Part shown: positions 5,704 through 30,558 of the stretch, piece by piece | Layout of the letters: each line of letters begins with the position of its first letter | How positions within the stretch are numbered: position 1 is the stretch's first letter | Origin: Halanaerobium hydrogeniformans | GTDB taxonomy: Bacteria; Bacillota; Halanaerobiia; Halanaerobiales; Halanaerobiaceae | Assembly: GCF_000166415.1 (NCBI RefSeq) | Contig: NC_014654.1 | Coordinates: forward strand, 682,001 to 746,000 | Reading direction: 5' to 3' | Length of the DNA stretch: 64,000 nucleotides | Notes under the pieces: generated by a model | The model's input: only the letters and a program-made list of their open reading frames with translations | Told to the model about the DNA's origin: nothing | Database searches by the model: none | Program-made: the position numbers and the translations under genes

Positions 5704-5976
5704 ATGAAGCTAACTCATGAGATTAGAGACCCTATACATATTTTTATTAAACTTTCTTCGGAAGAAAGGAAAGTCTTAGATTCTCCGCAATTTCAGCGTT
5801 TACGCTATATTCACCAATTAGCATTAACATATCTAGTTTATCCAGGGGCAACCCATAATCGCTTTGAACATTCATTAGGTACAATGGAACTGGCAAGTAC
5901 TGAAGAATTAAACTGCCATAGAATTACAGTAAGTCGTGAAATTTCAAAAAAAGAAATAAAGCTTAAAAATAGATAA
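5704..5976 (+). pseudogene. HD-superfamily phosphohydrolase, N-terminal fragment
   Basis: The first ~65 residues are a recognisable start of a dGTPase/SAMHD1-like HD hydrolase: [46 protein letters not shown] in part, including the metal-binding His of NRFEHS. After GTMELAS the sequence departs from the family and stops at 90 residues, where relatives run to 300-450. The rest is absent, so this looks like a deletion remnant. About 130 bases of unassigned sequence separate it from the helicase. Confidence 0.65.
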
Positions 5977-6110
5977 AGATAATTTTATATATGAGACCTA
6001 AAAAGTTGAAAAAGATAAGGCTAAAGAAAGAGTAGCGCTACGAGACGCATAGAAGGTCAGACAATTAGAGATTGGCCTGAAGAAGCTGATACAAGTGGGA
6101 GGGTTTATTC

Positions 6111-7991
6111 ATGGATGAAATTGATTTTAATGAAGAACATTTTTTGATTTCTGATCCCCAAATGATTAATAATAATAATTTAAGAGAACCTCAAATTAGC
6201 GCATATCATAAAGTATACAATCATTTTGTTACCAAAAGTAAAACATCACATGCAATAATAGTCTTACCAACTGGAGTAGGAAAAACAGGTTTAATGGCAA
6301 TATTACCGTACCATATTTCTGAAGGCAGAGTATTAATTATAACTCCTGGTACAACAATAAGAGATTCTATTATTGATTCCTTAGATCCTGATAATTATGA
6401 CAATTTCTGGTTAAAAAGAAAAGTTTTTAAAGATGTTGAGAAGCTACCTAATTTAATTGAATATGAAGGAGACGATACTCCCTTAGAAATAATAAATAAC
6501 GCAAATATAGTTGTTTTAAATGTACATAAACTTCAAAATAGACTTGATTCATCACTATTAAAAAGAGTTAATGAAGATTTTTTTGATATGATATTAATTG
6601 ATGAAGCTCATCATTCTACAGCAGATACCTGGGTTGAAGCAGTAAACTATTTTTCTGATGCTAAAATAGTTAAATTAACCGGTACCCCTTTTAGAAGTGA
6701 TGGTAAACCAATTGTAGGGGAAGAAGTATTTAAATATAAGTTGAGTGCTGCTATGGCGAATAATTATGTAAAAAGTTTAGAAGATATTGTCCATGTACCT
6801 GGAAAATTATATTTAACTATTGATAACAAATATAAAAAAGAGTATACTGTAAAAAAAATATATGATATGGATTTAAAAGATGAAAATTGGATCAGTCGGT
6901 CTGTAGCATATTCTAAAAATTGTTCTGAAAAAGTTGTAGTTGAAAGTCTTAAACAGTTAGAAGAAAAAACTAATAAGAGTTCTGTTCCCCACAAAATTAT
7001 AGCAGTTACTTGTAGTATAGATCATGCGGAACAAATTAAAGAAATATATATAAACAAAGGATATGAAACTACAATTGTGCATAGTAAGATGAGTGATGAA
7101 AAGCTGCAAAAAGCTCATAGTGATATTGAAAATCATAGAGTTCAAGTTGTAGTTAATGTGGCAATGTTAGGAGAAGGTTTTGATCATAAGTACTTATCTG
7201 TTGCAGCTATTTTTCGACCTTTTAGGAGTAAATTACCATATGCACAATTTGTTGGTAGAATATTAAGAAGAATTCCTGAAGATGAAGTAGAGAGTGTAGA
7301 AGATAATATTGGTGTAATTGTATCTCATCAATACTTATACTTAAAGGATTTATGGGATTATTATAAAAAAGAAATTCAGGAAAGTGATACTATAAAATAT
7401 TTGAATGAATTAGAAATTTCGGATGATGAATCAGAAACTATAGATGGGAAAAGAGATCTAAGTATTGGTAATGCTAGAGAAGAGGGTGAAGGAAAGGTTA
7501 TAGTAGATCCCTATATTACTACAGAATTGCTCAAAAAAAGGAAAGAAGAAATAGCTAAAAGAAAAGAAGCAATTAAAAATTTACAAGATATGTTAGAAAT
7601 ACAAAAAGAAGAAGCAGCAAAGATTTATGATTCCAGTCAGACTAGTAAGTCTAAAATAAAAAGGCCGGATCAATATTTTAAAAACAGAAAAAAAGATATA
7701 GATCATTTGATAAAGTATGAAATTGTTCCAGAATTAATTAATGAATTTAATTTACAAAAAGATGGTGATGAAATAATTGGCTGTAGGCTTTTTAAAGATA
7801 AATTTTCTTGGATTAGAAAGATAGGTAATAATGCGGGGATGTTGTCGGCTTATTTTAGTGATGCATTAAGGCATAAGATTAGCAAAAAAAGAAAGGATTG
7901 GAATTTATCTGATTATGATATTGCATTTGAACAAATAGATGCAATTAAAGAGTATGCAGAAAATGTGCTTCATAGTTATTTGGAAGGTTAA
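6111..7991 (+). CDS. SF2 DEAD/DEAH-type helicase, likely defence or DNA-processing
   Basis: Superfamily 2 ATP-dependent nucleic-acid motor of 626 residues. Walker A is PTGVGKTG (53-60), the Walker B box is DEAH (164-167), motif III is TGTPFR (190-195), and motif VI is QFVGRILRR in the second RecA domain. The C-terminal ~200 residues are lysine/glutamate-rich, probably coiled coil, and match nothing I can name. No nuclease, methylase or HsdR domain is visible. RBS GGGAGG precedes the ATG. It sits between an HD-hydrolase scrap and a small unknown gene in an island rich in toxin-antitoxin genes, which suggests but does not prove an anti-phage role. Confidence 0.8.
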   Translation: MDEIDFNEEHFLISDPQMINNNNLREPQISAYHKVYNHFVTKSKTSHAIIVLPTGVGKTGLMAILPYHISEGRVLIITPGTTIRDSIIDSLDPDNYDNFWLKRKVFKDVEKLPNLIEYEGDDTPLEIINNANIVVLNVHKLQNRLDSSLLKRVNEDFFDMILIDEAHHSTADTWVEAVNYFSDAKIVKLTGTPFRSDGKPIVGEEVFKYKLSAAMANNYVKSLEDIVHVPGKLYLTIDNKYKKEYTVKKIYDMDLKDENWISRSVAYSKNCSEKVVVESLKQLEEKTNKSSVPHKIIAVTCSIDHAEQIKEIYINKGYETTIVHSKMSDEKLQKAHSDIENHRVQVVVNVAMLGEGFDHKYLSVAAIFRPFRSKLPYAQFVGRILRRIPEDEVESVEDNIGVIVSHQYLYLKDLWDYYKKEIQESDTIKYLNELEISDDESETIDGKRDLSIGNAREEGEGKVIVDPYITTELLKKRKEEIAKRKEAIKNLQDMLEIQKEEAAKIYDSSQTSKSKIKRPDQYFKNRKKDIDHLIKYEIVPELINEFNLQKDGDEIIGCRLFKDKFSWIRKIGNNAGMLSAYFSDALRHKISKKRKDWNLSDYDIAFEQIDAIKEYAENVLHSYLEG

Positions 7992-8039
7992 AAGTTTAAA
8001 GTTTTGAAACTTAATGATTAAAATGAAGGGTGTGATCAA

Positions 8040-8384
8040 ATGAAAGACGATATCAAAAATCTTTATGAGTTATTTTATTCTTCGGTGGTAACCCCCTATA
8101 ATTTACTAGAAAATGCAAAATTACCAAATTATAGTTATGTTAACTATTATATGGGTGATGATGGTTTAATTGCAGAAATGAAGTGTGAAATAGAAGATTA
8201 TCAGGGGCAGGTAATTTTTTATTATAATTTTGATAAAGAGGATAAGTTGGAACAAGTATTTATTGAAGAAAATGCAGCTGAAAAGAAGTTGATTTATGAT
8301 AGAAAAACAGAACAAAAATATCAAATCAATGATATTTTAAAGAAATGGATGGAAAACAGTGATAATATGGGTGAAGCAATTTAA
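8040..8384 (+). CDS. Small acidic protein of unknown function
   Basis: 114 residues, acidic, without signal peptide or membrane segment. It lies 48 bases after the helicase on the same strand with an acceptable RBS (GAAGGGTG), so the two may be co-transcribed. The alternation of short beta-like stretches (YVNYYMGDDGLIAEMK, GQVIFYYNFD) gives no recognised family. A 14-bp perfect hairpin follows at 8476-8517. No function can be assigned from sequence. Confidence 0.6.
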   Translation: MKDDIKNLYELFYSSVVTPYNLLENAKLPNYSYVNYYMGDDGLIAEMKCEIEDYQGQVIFYYNFDKEDKLEQVFIEENAAEKKLIYDRKTEQKYQINDILKKWMENSDNMGEAI

Positions 8385-8475
8385 ATAAAATAAATGGTTG
8401 TATAAAAGTAATTGTGTATTTTTAAAACTAACCAGAAATAAAAAAATACTTGGTTTTTAAGTTTTCAACTTTGGG

Positions 8476-8517
8476 AATAATAAAGTCAATTCTTTTGACA
8501 AATTTGACTTTATTATT
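8476..8517. terminator. Hairpin between the helicase genes and the ISL3 remnant
   Basis: Arms AATAATAAAGTCAA (8476-8489) and its exact complement (8504-8517) around a 14-base loop. The stem is AT-rich and flanked by A and T runs on both sides, so it may end transcription from either direction. It may instead be an end of the ISL3 remnant next to it. Confidence 0.45.
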
Positions 8518-8684
8518 TAAAGCGTGAATAGACTTTTTAAAATAAAGGTATACAGTAAGTTTCTAAACTCCTCTGTAAGCGCCCATGCTTTTTCTAAAGC
8601 GGGAGATAGTTCGAAAATTTCTATCAACCGCTGGTGTGCATCATCATTAAGTTTTTCATCGGTTATTAAAAGAGTGAGCTTGAT
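8517..8684 (-). pseudogene. ISL3-family transposase C-terminal fragment
   Basis: On the minus strand an open stretch reads LLITDEKLNDDAHQRLIEIF, then ELSPALEKAWALTEEFRNLL, ending in TAA. The pattern of a DEKL-type segment followed by L-SP-L--A-xLKE-FR is characteristic of the DDE domain of ISL3 transposases. Everything upstream and the element ends are missing or unrecognisable. A plus-strand frame across the same bases is a shadow. Confidence 0.55.
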
Positions 8685-8896
8685 TTATGGAATTTATTTC
8701 TATTATAAGCAGTTTGCTTTAAAAGATAGAGTTTGAAACGCTTAGATTTCCTAGAATATTTAGTGATACTCTGTATTTTTTTCGGTAGTGTTCTTTTGCC
8801 ACAGTGACCGTATGTGAATGTCAAATAACATTTTACACTTTTCGTTTATTAATAGTTCAATCTAAAATTTTTTATTTGTCATATCATTAAAGCTGA
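8685..8896. other. Non-coding stretch before the intron target
   Basis: No convincing gene. It may contain further decayed ISL3 sequence. The stretch ends at a Rho-independent terminator at 8897-8923, which is the landing site of the group II intron. Confidence 0.4.
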
Positions 8897-8923
8897 CTCT
8901 CACTGGAAGGTGGGAGTTTTTTT
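8897..8923 (+). terminator. Rho-independent terminator used as group IIC intron target
   Basis: Stem CTCTCAC / GTGGGAG around a six-base loop, followed by seven T (8917-8923). The intron starts two bases after the T-run. Class IIC introns are known to insert just behind such terminators. A closely similar stem-loop is at 14223-14259, after the DarG gene. Confidence 0.75.
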
Positions 8924-8925
8924 AT

Positions 8926-10841
8926 GTTTGCCTGGCATGGATATTTGCTAGTCAGTGAAAGTCTGATGTGGGGGTCAATAGTGCCAACCACTAGCTGAAG
9001 ACAAGGGTGTCCACCGTGAGGTGGAATCTGAAGGAAGTTGGAGGCAAAGCTTCGGTCTGAGGAATACGAACTGTATAAAAGGCACAATCTTGTGGGTAAG
9101 TTTGCATAACAAAACAAAGCCCAAAACTATTCGAGACGGGAAGTGTAAATACAGCAGATAGATGTAGTGAAAGCAAATATTCTTAACCAGGGAAGGTCTG
9201 ACAGTAGATTGTGGTGATGAATTTCTAAGCAATAAACTCTGCAGTAATGCAAGAGTTGAACTGTCAGAATGCAGCAGAAGTCATAGTAGATTGGTGGATA
9301 TATACACTAATTGAAGGATGAAACATTAGGAGGTTTCTTAAATTTGAACAACTCGACGGAAACACATAGAAAGCAGACAACTTCATATGAAGGCTGCTCT
9401 CAGGAGAAAAGGCTGGAAGCTGGAAGTAATGAGAGAGTGCAGAGTGTTTCTGCGGCGTTGCCGAAGGAAAGAAACGGTGAAAAGGCAGACTCCAGTAATC
9501 TGATGGAGAAAATTCTTGCAGCTCCAAACCTGAATAAGGCATATAAAAAGAGTTGTAGGAAATAAAGGCAGCCATGGTATTGATGGGATGAGTGTAGATG
9601 AACTTCTACCCCACCTTAAAAGAAACGGCAGTCAACTTCTGAAAGATATACTGGAAGGTAATTACAAACCACAGGCAGTAAGAAGGGTAGAAATACCTAA
9701 GCCTGGTGGTGGAGTAAGACTACTTGGTATTCCAACAGTAATAGATAGAATGATTCAACAGGCAATAACACAACAGCTGACGCCAATATTTGATCCGGGA
9801 TTTTCAGAGTACAGTTACGGATTCAGACCTGGAAGAAATGCACACCAGGCGGTAAATAAAGCCAGGGAATATATAAATGACGGTTATACATGGGTGGTCG
9901 ATATAGACCTTGAAAAGTATTTCGATACTGTTCAACATGATAAACTGATGTCTTTAGTAGCCAGGAAAGTGCAGGATAAGAGGGTGCTGAAGTTAATAAG
10001 AGCTTACCTTAACTCAGGAGTAATGATTGATGGTGTAATCAGTAAAGATGATAAAGGTTGCCCCCAGGGCGGCCCGTTAAGTCCGCTGCTCAGCAACATA
10101 ATGCTGGATGAACTGGATAAAGAACTGGAGAAACGCAATCATAAATTCTGTCGCTACGCTGATGATAGTCAGATCTATGTCAGAAGCAGAAAAGCGGCCA
10201 AGAGAGTTATGGAAAGCATAACTGTATTTGTTGAAAAGAAACTCAAACTTAAAGTCAATGCAAGGAAAAGTGCAGTCGGCAGACCCTGGAGAAGAAAATT
10301 CTTAGGGTTTTCATTCTATAGTAGGAAAGGTGAAGTAAGGGTTAGAATCCACCCGAAATCGATTAAGAAAATTAAAGGAAAGATAAAAGCACTCACATCA
10401 AGGAGTAAGCCATGGACAATGAAATATCGTTTTAAGAAATTAAAACAGATAATCACAGGCTGGGTCAGCTACTATAAAATAGCTGATATGAAAAGAAAGA
10501 TGAGGGAACTTGACCAGTGGGCAAGACGAAGAATAAGAATGTGCTACTGGAAGAGGTGGAAGAAAATTAGAACCCGCTTTAAGATGCTCAGGAAACTGGG
10601 TATCAAAGAAGCTAAGGCATGGAAATATGCTAACACAAGGAAAGGCTACTGGAGAATATCCAATAGCCCAATACTTGCAAGAACCTTTACCAACCAGTTA
10701 TTAAAGAAACTGGGATACTTCAGTTTTACGGAAAGATATGCACAAGCAACTAATACTTAATGAACCGCCCAGTACCGAACGGTACGCTGCGGTGGTGTGA
10801 GAGGACGGAAAATAAATTAATTATTTTCCTCCTACTCGATT
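8926..10841 (+). mobile_element. Group II intron, bacterial class C (GsI-IIC-like)
   Basis: The 5' end reads GTTTGCCTGGCATGG, close to the GTGTGCCCGGCATGG of the Geobacillus IIC intron. It continues with domain I landmarks such as CAAGGGTGTCC, GGAATCTGAAGGAAG, GGTCTGAGGAA and GTTTGCATAACAAAACAAAG. Domain V starts at 10762 (GAACCGCCCAGTACCGAACG) and ends in GGTGGTGTGAGAGG. A domain VI hairpin and the class C terminus CCTACTCGAT close the intron. The RNA seems structurally complete, but the encoded maturase has a frameshift. Ends are good to about two bases. Confidence 0.88.
9344..10760 (+). pseudogene. ltrA: Group II intron reverse transcriptase/maturase, frameshifted
   Basis: Reverse transcriptase and maturase that splices and mobilises its host intron. 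The best start is TTG at 9344 behind AGGAGGT. The N-terminal piece ends early in frame 2, while the rest (from about 9550, ATG at 9588) is in frame 0. One extra A in TATAAAAAGAG near 9545 explains this, since removing it gives NLNKAYKRVVGNKGSHGIDG. RT blocks are IPKPGGGVRLLGIP, YGFRPGRNAHQAV, the catalytic YADD, QGGPLSPLLSN and KFLGF. The maturase X domain follows and there is no endonuclease domain, as in class C. Without the shift the protein would have about 470 residues. Confidence 0.87.
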
Positions 10842-11110: not shown

Positions 11111-12058
11111 ATATTATAAGGAGATGGGGTTATGTATAAAGATAATTATAAAAAATTAAAGGCTGCTATTAATAAACTCAAATCTAAATATGACTTTAAA
11201 GGTTTATATCATTTTACTGATTTCAAAAATTTAAAAAGCATTATTGAAACAGAGTGTTAAAAAAGCAGGGCTGAATGCCAGAATAGTGAGATTGATTTTT
11301 TAGATGCAGCCAATGAGGATGTTATTGAACATACTAAACAAGATATAAAAAAATGTGTAAGGTTTTATTATAAAGAAAAAACTCCTACTTTATACAAGAA
11401 TGAAGGAATTAAAGTAGATAATGCGAAACCTCATATTCCCCTGCCAGTGTATTTATTATTTGATTATGAGTTAATATTATTAGAAAATACAGTATTTGCG
11501 AGTTGTAATGCAGCATCCTCAAATGTTAATTTTGGAAAAGATTTTGAATTTTTTAAGACGATGGACTGGGATAAAATATTTCATCGAGGATCATTGCATA
11601 TCGAAGATACCCCATTAAAAAGAGAAATTATTAGTAAACGGCATGCTGAATTATTGGGGTTACAGGATATTTCACTGAATTATTTAAATAAGATATTTTT
11701 TAGAAGTAAGGCAGATTACAAAAGAGCAATTAATTTATTTGGAAAGGATGATAAATTAGAGCTTGACGCCAGCTTATTTAACTGCAATAATAATTATATA
11801 GAAGATTATAAACTAGAAATTCATAAACAGACTCAGAAAACTATTGATATTAACTTAGAATTTAACAAAAGAAATTATAAAAATTATACTCATACAATTA
11901 TAATTAAAGATTTGGAATCTGCTAATATAGTTTATGATAAAAATATTAATTTCACGAATGGAAATGATTTGAAACGTCATGGTAACTATATAGCCCCCTA
12001 ACAGAATTGGAGAAAAAGTTTGAAAGTGATATACTCTAATTACAAGGGGGAAACACCA

Positions 12059-13491: not shown

Positions 13492-14187
13492 ATGATTAAA
13501 TACTATCAAGGAACAGTATTCAATGCTCCCGCTAAAACTATAGTTAATACAGTTAACTGCGTTGGAATAATGGGGGCAGGTATAGCCCTGGAATTCAAAC
13601 TCAGATTTCCCGAAATGTATAAAGATTATAAGGATAAATGCAATAAAAACTTAGTTAGAATAGGACGGCCTTATATCTACTGTCATAGTGATGATTTATG
13701 GATATTGAATTTCCCAACAAAAAAACACTGGCGAAATAAGTCAGAAATAGAATGGATTGAAGCAGGACTTAAATATTTTAATAAAAATCATTCTAAAGTT
13801 GAGATGGAATCAGTTGCTTTTCCCAAATTAGGTACAAACAATGGTGGTTTAGACTGGGAAGCAGTTAAAGATTTAATGGAGAAATATTTATCTGATTTGG
13901 ATATTGATATTTATATCTGCTTGAATGAGAAAAATGAAGCAGAGGGTATAGAAAAAAAGATGTTGGATCTAGTTAATAAAGTTGATCGTGAACATTTAAT
14001 TAAAGAGGTTGGTATAAACGCCAAGCAGGCTAAAAAAATAGTAGATAAGCAGCCGGTTCAGAGATTCTGGCAGATAAATAATTTTAAAGGAATAGGGAAG
14101 AAATCTTATGAAAAAATATTTAGATATTATTATCAACTGGCGAAAGGTAAAAAAAGAGAATTAGTTCAGATGGCTTTAGAGATGTAA
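13492..14187 (+). CDS. darG: DarG-like macrodomain antitoxin
   Basis: Removes ADP-ribose from thymidine in DNA and so reverses DarT. The macrodomain occupies about residues 1-150: YYQGTVFNAPAKTIVNTVNC, then the ADP-ribose loop VGIMGAGIALEFKLRFPEMY, then AFPKLGTNNGGLDW. The C-terminal ~80 residues (VQRFWQINNFKGIGKKSYEK in part) may be the short partner-binding region; at 231 residues it is shorter than many DarG proteins. It starts at ATG after GGATGGTG, 12 bases after darT. The gene is intact although its toxin gene is broken. Confidence 0.86.
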   Translation: MIKYYQGTVFNAPAKTIVNTVNCVGIMGAGIALEFKLRFPEMYKDYKDKCNKNLVRIGRPYIYCHSDDLWILNFPTKKHWRNKSEIEWIEAGLKYFNKNHSKVEMESVAFPKLGTNNGGLDWEAVKDLMEKYLSDLDIDIYICLNEKNEAEGIEKKMLDLVNKVDREHLIKEVGINAKQAKKIVDKQPVQRFWQINNFKGIGKKSYEKIFRYYYQLAKGKKRELVQMALEM

Positions 14188-24146: not shown

Positions 24147-24632
24147 ATGAATATTGGTGTTATCGGCAGCAGTGTTTGTTCCAACCAAACCTATGAGACA
24201 GCAGTAGAAATAGGTAGTTTAATTGCTGAACAGGGAGCTGTCCTTGTTTGTGGCGGCAGAAGCGGAGTAATGGAAGGGGCAGCTGAAGGTGCTTTAAAAA
24301 AAGATGGTACAACTGTCGGTATTTTACCGGGAATGGATCGGCAGCAAGCTAACGAGTTTGTCAAATATCCAGTTGCTACAGGTATTGGCCAGGCTAGAAA
24401 TTTAATTGTTGTTCTCAATTCAGATGTAGTGATTGCTGTAGAAGGTAAATATGGGACACTTTCAGAAATAGCTTTAGCTTTAAAGCATGGGATTTCTGTT
24501 GTTAGTCTTAATAGCTGGGATTTAAGTAAAATTACTTTAGATAATAGTATTAATAAGTTTTTCTTCAAGGTTGAAACAGCAGAAGAGGCGGTTGGAAAAG
24601 CCTGTCAGCTAGGAGAAAAAAGAAAAAGATAA
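24147..24632 (+). CDS. TIGR00725/SLOG-family protein
   Basis: 161 residues with a Rossmann-like LOG/SLOG fold: MNIGVIGSSVCSNQTYE at the start, VCGGRSGVMEGAAEGA (nucleotide or nucleoside-phosphate binding) and EGKYGTLSEIALALKHG (the GGxGTxxE-like motif, here with K in place of the second G). The family is annotated as a possible cofactor carrier or nucleotide-binding protein; the substrate is unknown. RBS CGGAGGG precedes the ATG. It stands alone, between a terminator and a nested transposon. Confidence 0.8.
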   Translation: MNIGVIGSSVCSNQTYETAVEIGSLIAEQGAVLVCGGRSGVMEGAAEGALKKDGTTVGILPGMDRQQANEFVKYPVATGIGQARNLIVVLNSDVVIAVEGKYGTLSEIALALKHGISVVSLNSWDLSKITLDNSINKFFFKVETAEEAVGKACQLGEKRKR

Positions 24633-29383: not shown

Positions 29384-30558
29384 TTCATACATCTAAACTA
29401 TATAATATTGTTAATTATTCTATTCACAATGGAGAAAATAAACCTGTATATACTAAATTAGATAAAAAATTTAGAGGTAACTGGCATTGTGATTATTTAC
29501 ATTCACATAATAGACAACATTGTCTAAAATTATTAGCTCAAAATTGGAAATCATATTTCAGAAGTTTAAATGATTATAAAAATAATCCTTCTAAATACAA
29601 TGCCATACCTAAACCTCCTAGATATAAATATTTAGATTCTAATCCCAATGAGATTATTTTTACCAACCAAGCTATTAGAATTAAAAACGGTAATCTTTTA
29701 TTATCTTTATCTAAAAAGATAAGATCTGATTATAAAGTGGACAATCTTAAATTTGAGCTTTCTGATAAAGTTCAAAGCTTTATAAACATGGATTCTATCC
29801 AACAGGTAAAGATCAAAAGAAAATCCGGTTCCAATAGATGGTATTTAATTGTTTTTTATAACAAAGAGTGTAAAAACAACGATGGTAAAAATGTAATGAG
29901 TATTGATCCTGGATTAGATAATTTAGCTGCTATAACATTTAAAGACAGTAATAAAAATTATTTAATTAATGGTAAACCTCTTAAATCTAAAAACTCTTAT
30001 TACAATAAAGAAATTGCAAGACTGTCATCTATTAGAATGAAACAGGTTGGTAGTAGGAAATTTAAAAACACCAATAAGATTAAAGCCCTTAGAGTTGATA
30101 GGAATAATTATGTTTTAAACTACCTGCATAAAGCAAGCAGGCGGGTAATTGATATAGCATTAGATAACAAGGTGGGTACTATTGTTATTGGTAATATTAA
30201 AAACATCAAACAAAATTCTACTATTAAATCTTTTGTTCAAATACCAGTACAGCGATTCATTAATATGATTGAGTATAAGGCTGAATTAGGAGGTATTAAT
30301 GTTGTTAGACTTAATGAAGCATATACTAGTGGATGTAGTGCTATTGAGTTAGAAAAAATTAATAAATCTAATTATAATAAGTCTCGTAGAGTATATAGGG
30401 GTTTGTTTAAAAATAAAAAGACCAACATTAATAGTGATATTAACGGTAGTCTCAATATATTAAGGAAATATTTGAAAGATAAATGTATTCCTGAACTCAT
30501 TAATGGAGCTAGGGATAATGGAGTTGTGTACCCTCCGAGACGAATAAGTGTTGCTTAA
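29384..30558 (+). pseudogene. tnpB: TnpB RNA-guided nuclease, main part after IS3 insertion
   Basis: About 391 codons, open from the IS boundary: HTSKLYNIVNYSIHNGENKP onward. The RuvC-like acids are D in SIDPGLDN, a probable E in LNEAYTSGCS and D in NSDINGSLNIL. Zn-finger cysteines are largely missing, as in its relative at 37248. TnpB proteins are RNA-guided nucleases using a right-end RNA. Joined to 27831-27898 the frame would give about 414 residues. An internal GTG at 29737 opens a 273-residue frame, which would lack the N-terminal RNA/DNA-binding part. Confidence 0.87.

Follow-up and report, generated by a model that had tools for sequence, protein, structure and literature searches.

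The helicase gene at positions 6111..7991 and the small gene behind it at positions 8040..8384, both on the + strand, almost certainly form one unit. We read this pair, with a probability of about 0.6, as a mobile two-gene anti-phage module in which the helicase would be the active arm and the small protein would restrain it. The window, i.e. the whole stretch of DNA that was analysed, is 64,000 nucleotides long and corresponds to positions 682001-746000 of the 2,613,117-base genome of Halanaerobium hydrogeniformans. A preliminary description had singled out in it a 626-aa DEAH helicase without nuclease or methylase and a 114-aa acidic neighbour, and had proposed the two as an undescribed defence unit. 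Both ORFs were found as described; the unit itself stood, and the defence part of the proposal, well supported by genomic position, is kept here as putative.

The preliminary description had also suggested looking for the small gene behind homologous helicases in other genomes. The 168 loci that were fetched (overlaps counted) contained 101 full-length helicases (63 distinct, 56 clusters at 90%), and a homologue of the partner was directly downstream of 94 of the 101, which is far above chance; this count, made on loci obtained mostly with helicase queries, tests whether the helicase has the partner, not the reverse. The helicases without a partner homologue had a different small gene (five cases) or were at a contig edge (two cases: in L036 the first partner codons are visible, and L113 continues for 158 bases past the helicase, with no partner visible therein). 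The distance between the two genes varied from -47 to +55 bases; it was of 20 bases or less in 44 of the 56 clusters, and a 4-base overlap was present in 19 of them. Helicase and partner diverge together: their distances are correlated (Mantel r 0.81, 0/2000 permutations).

Among 101 related genomes, clear relatives of the helicase were found in five and the small protein in three, each time right behind the helicase. The helicase of genome G022 is followed by a divergent 139-aa partner, which was missed by the single-sequence search and reached by the partner profile (E 9e-6); searched against 59 genomes, this profile gave matches in three, all of which adjoin the helicase. When 299 genomes of the phylum were drawn without selection, four of them matched the helicase profile, with the partner present in 4/4. 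The partner profile also gave four matches in this draw: three adjoin the helicase, and the fourth is a decayed fragment near an integrase-like ORF. Starting from the partner, a sample of 11 loci had the helicase upstream in 10 (L073 being without it). Of 5426 complete E. coli genomes, 129 contained the small gene, and the count for the whole pair was also 129/5426; the species holds in addition a second, more divergent lineage of the pair. Further pairs were found by scans in genome contigs, viral contigs and plasmids, and the pair moves between phyla. The L065 helicase has a large internal deletion, and in three loci (G070, L054 and L129) a broken helicase is combined with an intact partner, the reverse being not seen. 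This asymmetry proves little because the helicase is 5.5 times longer than the partner; such loci fit weakly with a partner acting as an antidote.

A putative ribosome-binding-like site, GGGAGGG, was read in front of the helicase gene (6097..6103, + strand) and another, GAAGGG, in front of the partner gene (8025..8030, + strand); in a promoter and terminator scan, sites were no more frequent than in shuffles. From its ORF, Pfam matches, motifs and AF2 model, the 626-aa protein is an SF2 (DEAH) helicase/translocase with a RadD/XPB-like core. The Pfam search gave ResIII and Helicase_C and no nuclease or methylase domain. The protein has all the core motifs, and the Walker A, DE[AGS]HH, T[GA]TP and Q..GR..R motifs were present in 56 of 56 non-redundant relatives. 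In the AF2 model (pLDDT 83) the core is two-lobed. Its closest solved structure is RadD (Z 24.0, rmsd 3.8 over 334 residues, 20% identity), the match spanning residues 16-420, and XPB and FANCM are also near. RadD, XPB and FANCM act on DNA, so the helicase is, on the basis of the model, likely a DNA translocase. The remainder, residues 412-626 (7344..7988, + strand), has no Pfam match above cut-off and is predicted to be all helical, save for short gaps and the poorly predicted stretch 439-470. No effector nuclease is visible, which counts against the anti-phage reading.

With such a RadD-type core, one could think of a housekeeping helicase with a chance neighbour. This reading is refuted: the RadD model gives the helicase 64.2 bits versus a cut-off of 720 for the NCBIfam RadD equivalog, clear relatives are limited to 5/101 related genomes and 4/299 genomes of the phylum, and the partner is constant. 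Membership of a housekeeping family, which the preliminary description had named as a way for its proposal to fail, is thus not what was found. The RadD (YejH) repair helicase differs from that of the window in its C-terminal region, the helicase of the window being moreover mobile and paired.

The partner (114 aa) was characterized from its ORF, a profile match and an AF2 model. Its net charge is -10 and its pI 4.4; acidity is not universal among partners, the pI being below 6 in 48 of 65. Partners are 104 to 150 aa long, and the closest relatives are 46-55% identical. It is a member of PHROG 12848, a family of unknown function (E 1.9e-23, residues 1-96/114 against positions 2-95/100 of the profile). 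There was no Pfam match at E<=1 and no PADLOC match, and no fitting name is available in Pfam, PADLOC or NCBIfam. The AF2 model (pLDDT 83.5) shows a helix-helix-five strands-helix arrangement, with no significant structural match in the PDB. Three candidate likenesses were set aside. DNA mimicry of the Ugi type (uracil-DNA glycosylase inhibitor) is a lead only, the Foldseek E values (0.56-0.95) being tied with unrelated rows and the VIA Z scores (4.8-5.1) being likewise level with them. A TIGR00296 match (E 0.0015, 18 bits versus a cut-off of 91) was judged to be due to chance, and the YD/Rhs repeats matched by PDB profiles (best E 0.003) were taken to reflect a common beta-hairpin pattern.

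Once the core is taken into account, partner divergence still tracks that of the helicase C-terminal region (partial r 0.39, 0/1000 permutations; 0.19 for the reverse). Since the partner covaries with this region beyond the core, residues 412-626 are likely to be its docking site; the partial correlation could be in part a saturation effect, as the C-terminal domain and the partner both evolve fast.

The different small gene found behind five helicases (L043, L044, L045, L060 and L061) codes for 76-86 aa and is mostly cysteine-bearing; the cysteine-bearing products are perhaps zinc-binding. These helicases are more distant relatives of the same kind. The L155 and L156 helicases are likewise followed by a replacement gene, the overall size range being 68-86 aa, and one case is on a 5.9-kb Klebsiella plasmid. 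By eye, the L060 and L061 helicases have an extra N-terminus resembling an excisionase/MerR-type helix-turn-helix. A third helicase branch (bits 440-450) comprises L126, L127 and L128; there, the partners are of 93-105 aa (L126:6999-7316, L127:6999-7316 and L128:7006-7287) and beyond the reach of the partner profile.

The case for defence comes from where the pair is found. In the six E. coli loci examined (6/6), it is located between the tyrosine integrase gene (int) and psu of a P4-like satellite, the site of the satellite being the tRNA-Sec gene for five of them. The accessible part of the study of Rousset et al. (2022, PMC9122126) presents the int-psu slot of these satellites as a proven anti-phage hotspot, with 79 groups, which elsewhere is filled with unrelated defence systems; in the assays given there, 18 systems plus P4 genes were tested and 7 conferred resistance. 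As far as that part goes, the E. coli form of the pair may be among the int-psu systems cloned without effect, which would count against defence. Over the clusters, the upstream neighbour (n=55) was a Peptidase_S24 protein (CI/LexA type) in nine and an HTH_3 protein in seven, and the downstream neighbour (n=49) contained a Resolvase (serine recombinase) domain in five and was Psu in three. These counts include the E. coli satellites; an upstream ORF was available for 55 of the 56 clusters, and 49 of 50 downstream ORFs were used, that of L041, which overlaps the partner, being left out. A 221-aa repressor-like ORF ends 11 bases ahead of the helicase start in L087. In Halanaerobium saccharolyticum, the pair comes directly behind three ORFs resembling HsdM, HsdS and HsdR, an operon that is probably a type I R-M system judging from gene order, size and sequence. 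In Leptospira, the pair follows a caspase-like gene, and Shedu is encoded nearby; on two Pseudomonas plasmids the pair is near a Tn7-like TnsD, and in G022 it is inserted among genes that by eye are of the flagellin type. Another observation concerns L047, where a DUF4062 gene (8406-9620) adjoins a prophage copy of the pair; DUF4062 proteins are called antiphage NADases in the accessible part of a 2026 preprint (PMC13174449).

In the phages collection, tblastn gave no record covering 80% of the helicase (58 records had partial matches), nothing for the class-2 helicase (E<=1e-30), and nothing for a partner (E<=0.001) or for an orphan of the kind described below (E<=0.01); the evidence for a prophage location therefore rests on IMG/VR contigs and on annotated plasmids and chromosomes. 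Because it occupies both cargo and defence slots, we call the pair a defence candidate, and a role in defence is, from these positions, likely.

PsyrTA and RqlHI are helicase toxin systems, PsyrT being the helicase and PsyrA the antitoxin. By analogy with them, the pair might be a toxin-antitoxin module, with the helicase as toxin and the partner as antitoxin, serving chiefly to stabilize mobile elements. An operon with frequent overlap, carriage on plasmids and phage satellites, and the existence of loci where the helicase is broken but the partner intact, without the reverse, all agree with it. Against it stand the int-psu slot and the repressor neighbours, settings where cargo counters rival phages, as well as the chromosomal copies, and we hold it to be improbable. 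PsyrT itself gave a weak match to the core of four helicase homologues (E 3e-7 to 0.003) and none, in PADLOC, to the helicase of the window. A role apart from defence, that of a helper by which a prophage or satellite would replicate or recombine its own DNA or maintain lysogeny, is very improbable: it would suit the many prophage copies near a repressor or integrase gene and the resemblance of the core to the repair helicase RadD, but the pair is optional cargo (129/5426 E. coli genomes), copies exist outside prophages in R-M-like settings, and the same slot is filled in other elements by unrelated defence systems (PMC9122126, accessible part).

The small gene can also be found alone. When the small protein of the window was compared with plasmids by tblastn, 11 records were obtained; the helicase adjoins in seven, and in the other four, all from L. 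interrogans, the small gene is without helicase (a second match place in NZ_CP092671.1 and NZ_CP092159.1 falls outside this tally). The Leptospira plasmid orphans are 100-102 aa long. They share 63% identity with the small protein of the Leptospira pair and are recognized by the partner profile (E about 1e-30), and their surroundings contain no remnant of a helicase; in the two with wide flanks, the gene has a cytosine methylase gene on one side and a terminase gene on the other. The same orphan gene was found in eight viral contigs (77-100% identical), none of which has a helicase in the stretch examined. The stand-alone homologues of Leptospira phage-plasmids and prophages are at L170:4983-5285, L171:3983-4291, L173:1483-1791, L175:1483-1791 and in L178-L185, the L180 copy having an in-frame stop close to its start. 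On another prophage, an orphan is beside a repressor-like gene (L073:4980-5306). According to the preliminary description, homologues of the small protein away from helicases would refute its proposal; to a limited extent such homologues exist, namely those of the Leptospira phage-plasmids and prophages and that of L073. The dN/dS values were 0.47 and 0.43 for the two more divergent comparisons and 0.76 and 0.17 for those with few changes; the former (0.43-0.47) point to mild constraint on the orphans. Strains FMAS_PD1 and FMAS_AP6 each have the orphan on one plasmid and a full pair on another, and L108, which shares its IMG genome number with L073, is a full pair on another prophage; for FMAS_KG1 and Langkawi, no pair was seen on the plasmids. 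This co-occurrence is suggestive, the strains being related.

Our preferred reading, the anti-phage module with a restraining partner, can be put as follows. The helicase, a DNA translocase, would act on phage or other foreign DNA. The partner, as antidote or adaptor, would bind the C-terminal helical domain and restrain or steer the helicase, holding it in check until infection. On this view, the system would be blunted by the orphans of Leptospira prophages, acting as captured antidotes or as decoys. That the partner restrains the helicase is a tentative hypothesis, favoured by the orphans and by the covariation of the partner with the C-terminal domain beyond the core, to which we give somewhat less than even odds. 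In its widest form, with a widespread undescribed system whose nuclease-free translocase is held off by a small protein and from which temperate phages of Leptospira have captured a stand-alone antidote, the proposal is doubtful. It is unlikely, in our view, that the pair serves defence with the partner as a required activator or substrate adaptor in place of a brake, the orphan phage copies then being dominant-negative decoys. An obligate subunit would indeed adjoin nearly every full-length relative, as the partner does; its replacement by another small gene in the distant helicases L043-L045, L060 and L061 and its covariation with the C-terminal domain agree as well. However, the orphans are nearly full length and not fragments, and sequence alone cannot part an adaptor from a brake.

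Should the preferred reading be correct, the lack of a family name for either gene has caused a common two-gene defence to be missed; the pair is present in 129/5426 complete E. coli genomes, in many temperate phages and on plasmids of distant bacteria. It would also add a helicase defence without visible nuclease, whose control the stand-alone partners make testable, with one inhibitor candidate and one defined target domain.

Helicase+DUF2290, Hachiman, Hna, R-M and RadD were each considered as the family of the pair and are excluded. Among known systems, Hachiman (HamAB) and AbpAB also combine an SF2 helicase with one smaller protein. For both, the accessible part of PMC10952713 (Table 1) lists PF08878 (CAP4-SAVED), which the partner lacks (no Pfam match above cut-off and no PADLOC match). 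Helicase+DUF2290 (Rst_HelicaseDUF2290) is similar in consisting of a helicase and a protein of unknown function and in its location in P4-like satellites and prophage hotspots, according to the available part of Rousset et al. (2022, PMC9122126). Its helicase is of the UvrD type (PF00580/PF13361; PMC10952713, Table 1), whereas that of the window is ResIII+Helicase_C and not UvrD/SF1. PF10053 is absent from the partner (E<=1) and from six other partners, four homologous and two replacement (E<=0.05). The DUF2290 proteins that we found are of 226-236 aa, without match to the 114-aa partner, and the genes adjoining all three matches look SF1-like by eye, with a DEAQD-type motif. Hna is another SF2 helicase in defence, described in the accessible part of PMC13381803 as a single protein of 845 aa that carries a PD-(D/E)XK nuclease at its C-terminus; the 626-aa helicase has no Pfam nuclease, and its residues 412-626 are predicted to be all helical. 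Type I and type III restriction were set aside, the endonuclease and methylase domains being absent from both proteins (Pfam). The best PADLOC matches, to PbeA and to type IV mREase helicase subunits (E 6e-12 and 2e-20), concern the helicase core only; these profiles are longer (672-953 positions) and matched in their helicase part alone. No description of the pair was found in the literature searched, and the supplementary tables of PMC9122126 may list it; we lean towards an undescribed helicase-centred two-gene defence candidate.

The HD hydrolase gene in front of the helicase, which the preliminary description had considered as a possible third part, has to be dropped: it is cut by an IS remnant and is not part of the unit. 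What is left is a 90-aa ORF (5704-5976), in which the HD gene is truncated after residue 66 and followed by a transposase-like piece. Over residues 1-66 this ORF shares 94% identity with an HD protein that, in G012 and G013, has an open frame of 438-440 aa. Over residues 66-89 it matches a 360-aa frame, of which the genome has six other copies and which, from its copy number and IS30-like helix-turn-helix sequence, is probably a transposase. When all ORFs of 136 loci were searched, the HD sequence of the scrap was found in the window's own locus only.

Several other features of the window were noted. A group II intron occupies positions 9010-10760, with Rfam matches to D1-D4 at 9010-9181 and 9233-9319 and a maturase ORF at 9588-10760. 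The DarT and DarG pair (11447-12001, 13492-14187) looks decayed: the DarT match is limited to the C-terminal half of the profile (89-185/201), DarG consists of a macro domain and a short tail, and transposase-type ORFs split one from the other. Further on, a SLOG cluster 4 protein (LDcluster4; 24147-24632) is encoded amid polysaccharide genes and insertion sequences, and an IS605 OrfB/TnpB-like gene with a Cas12f1-like TNB domain is present at 29737-30558.
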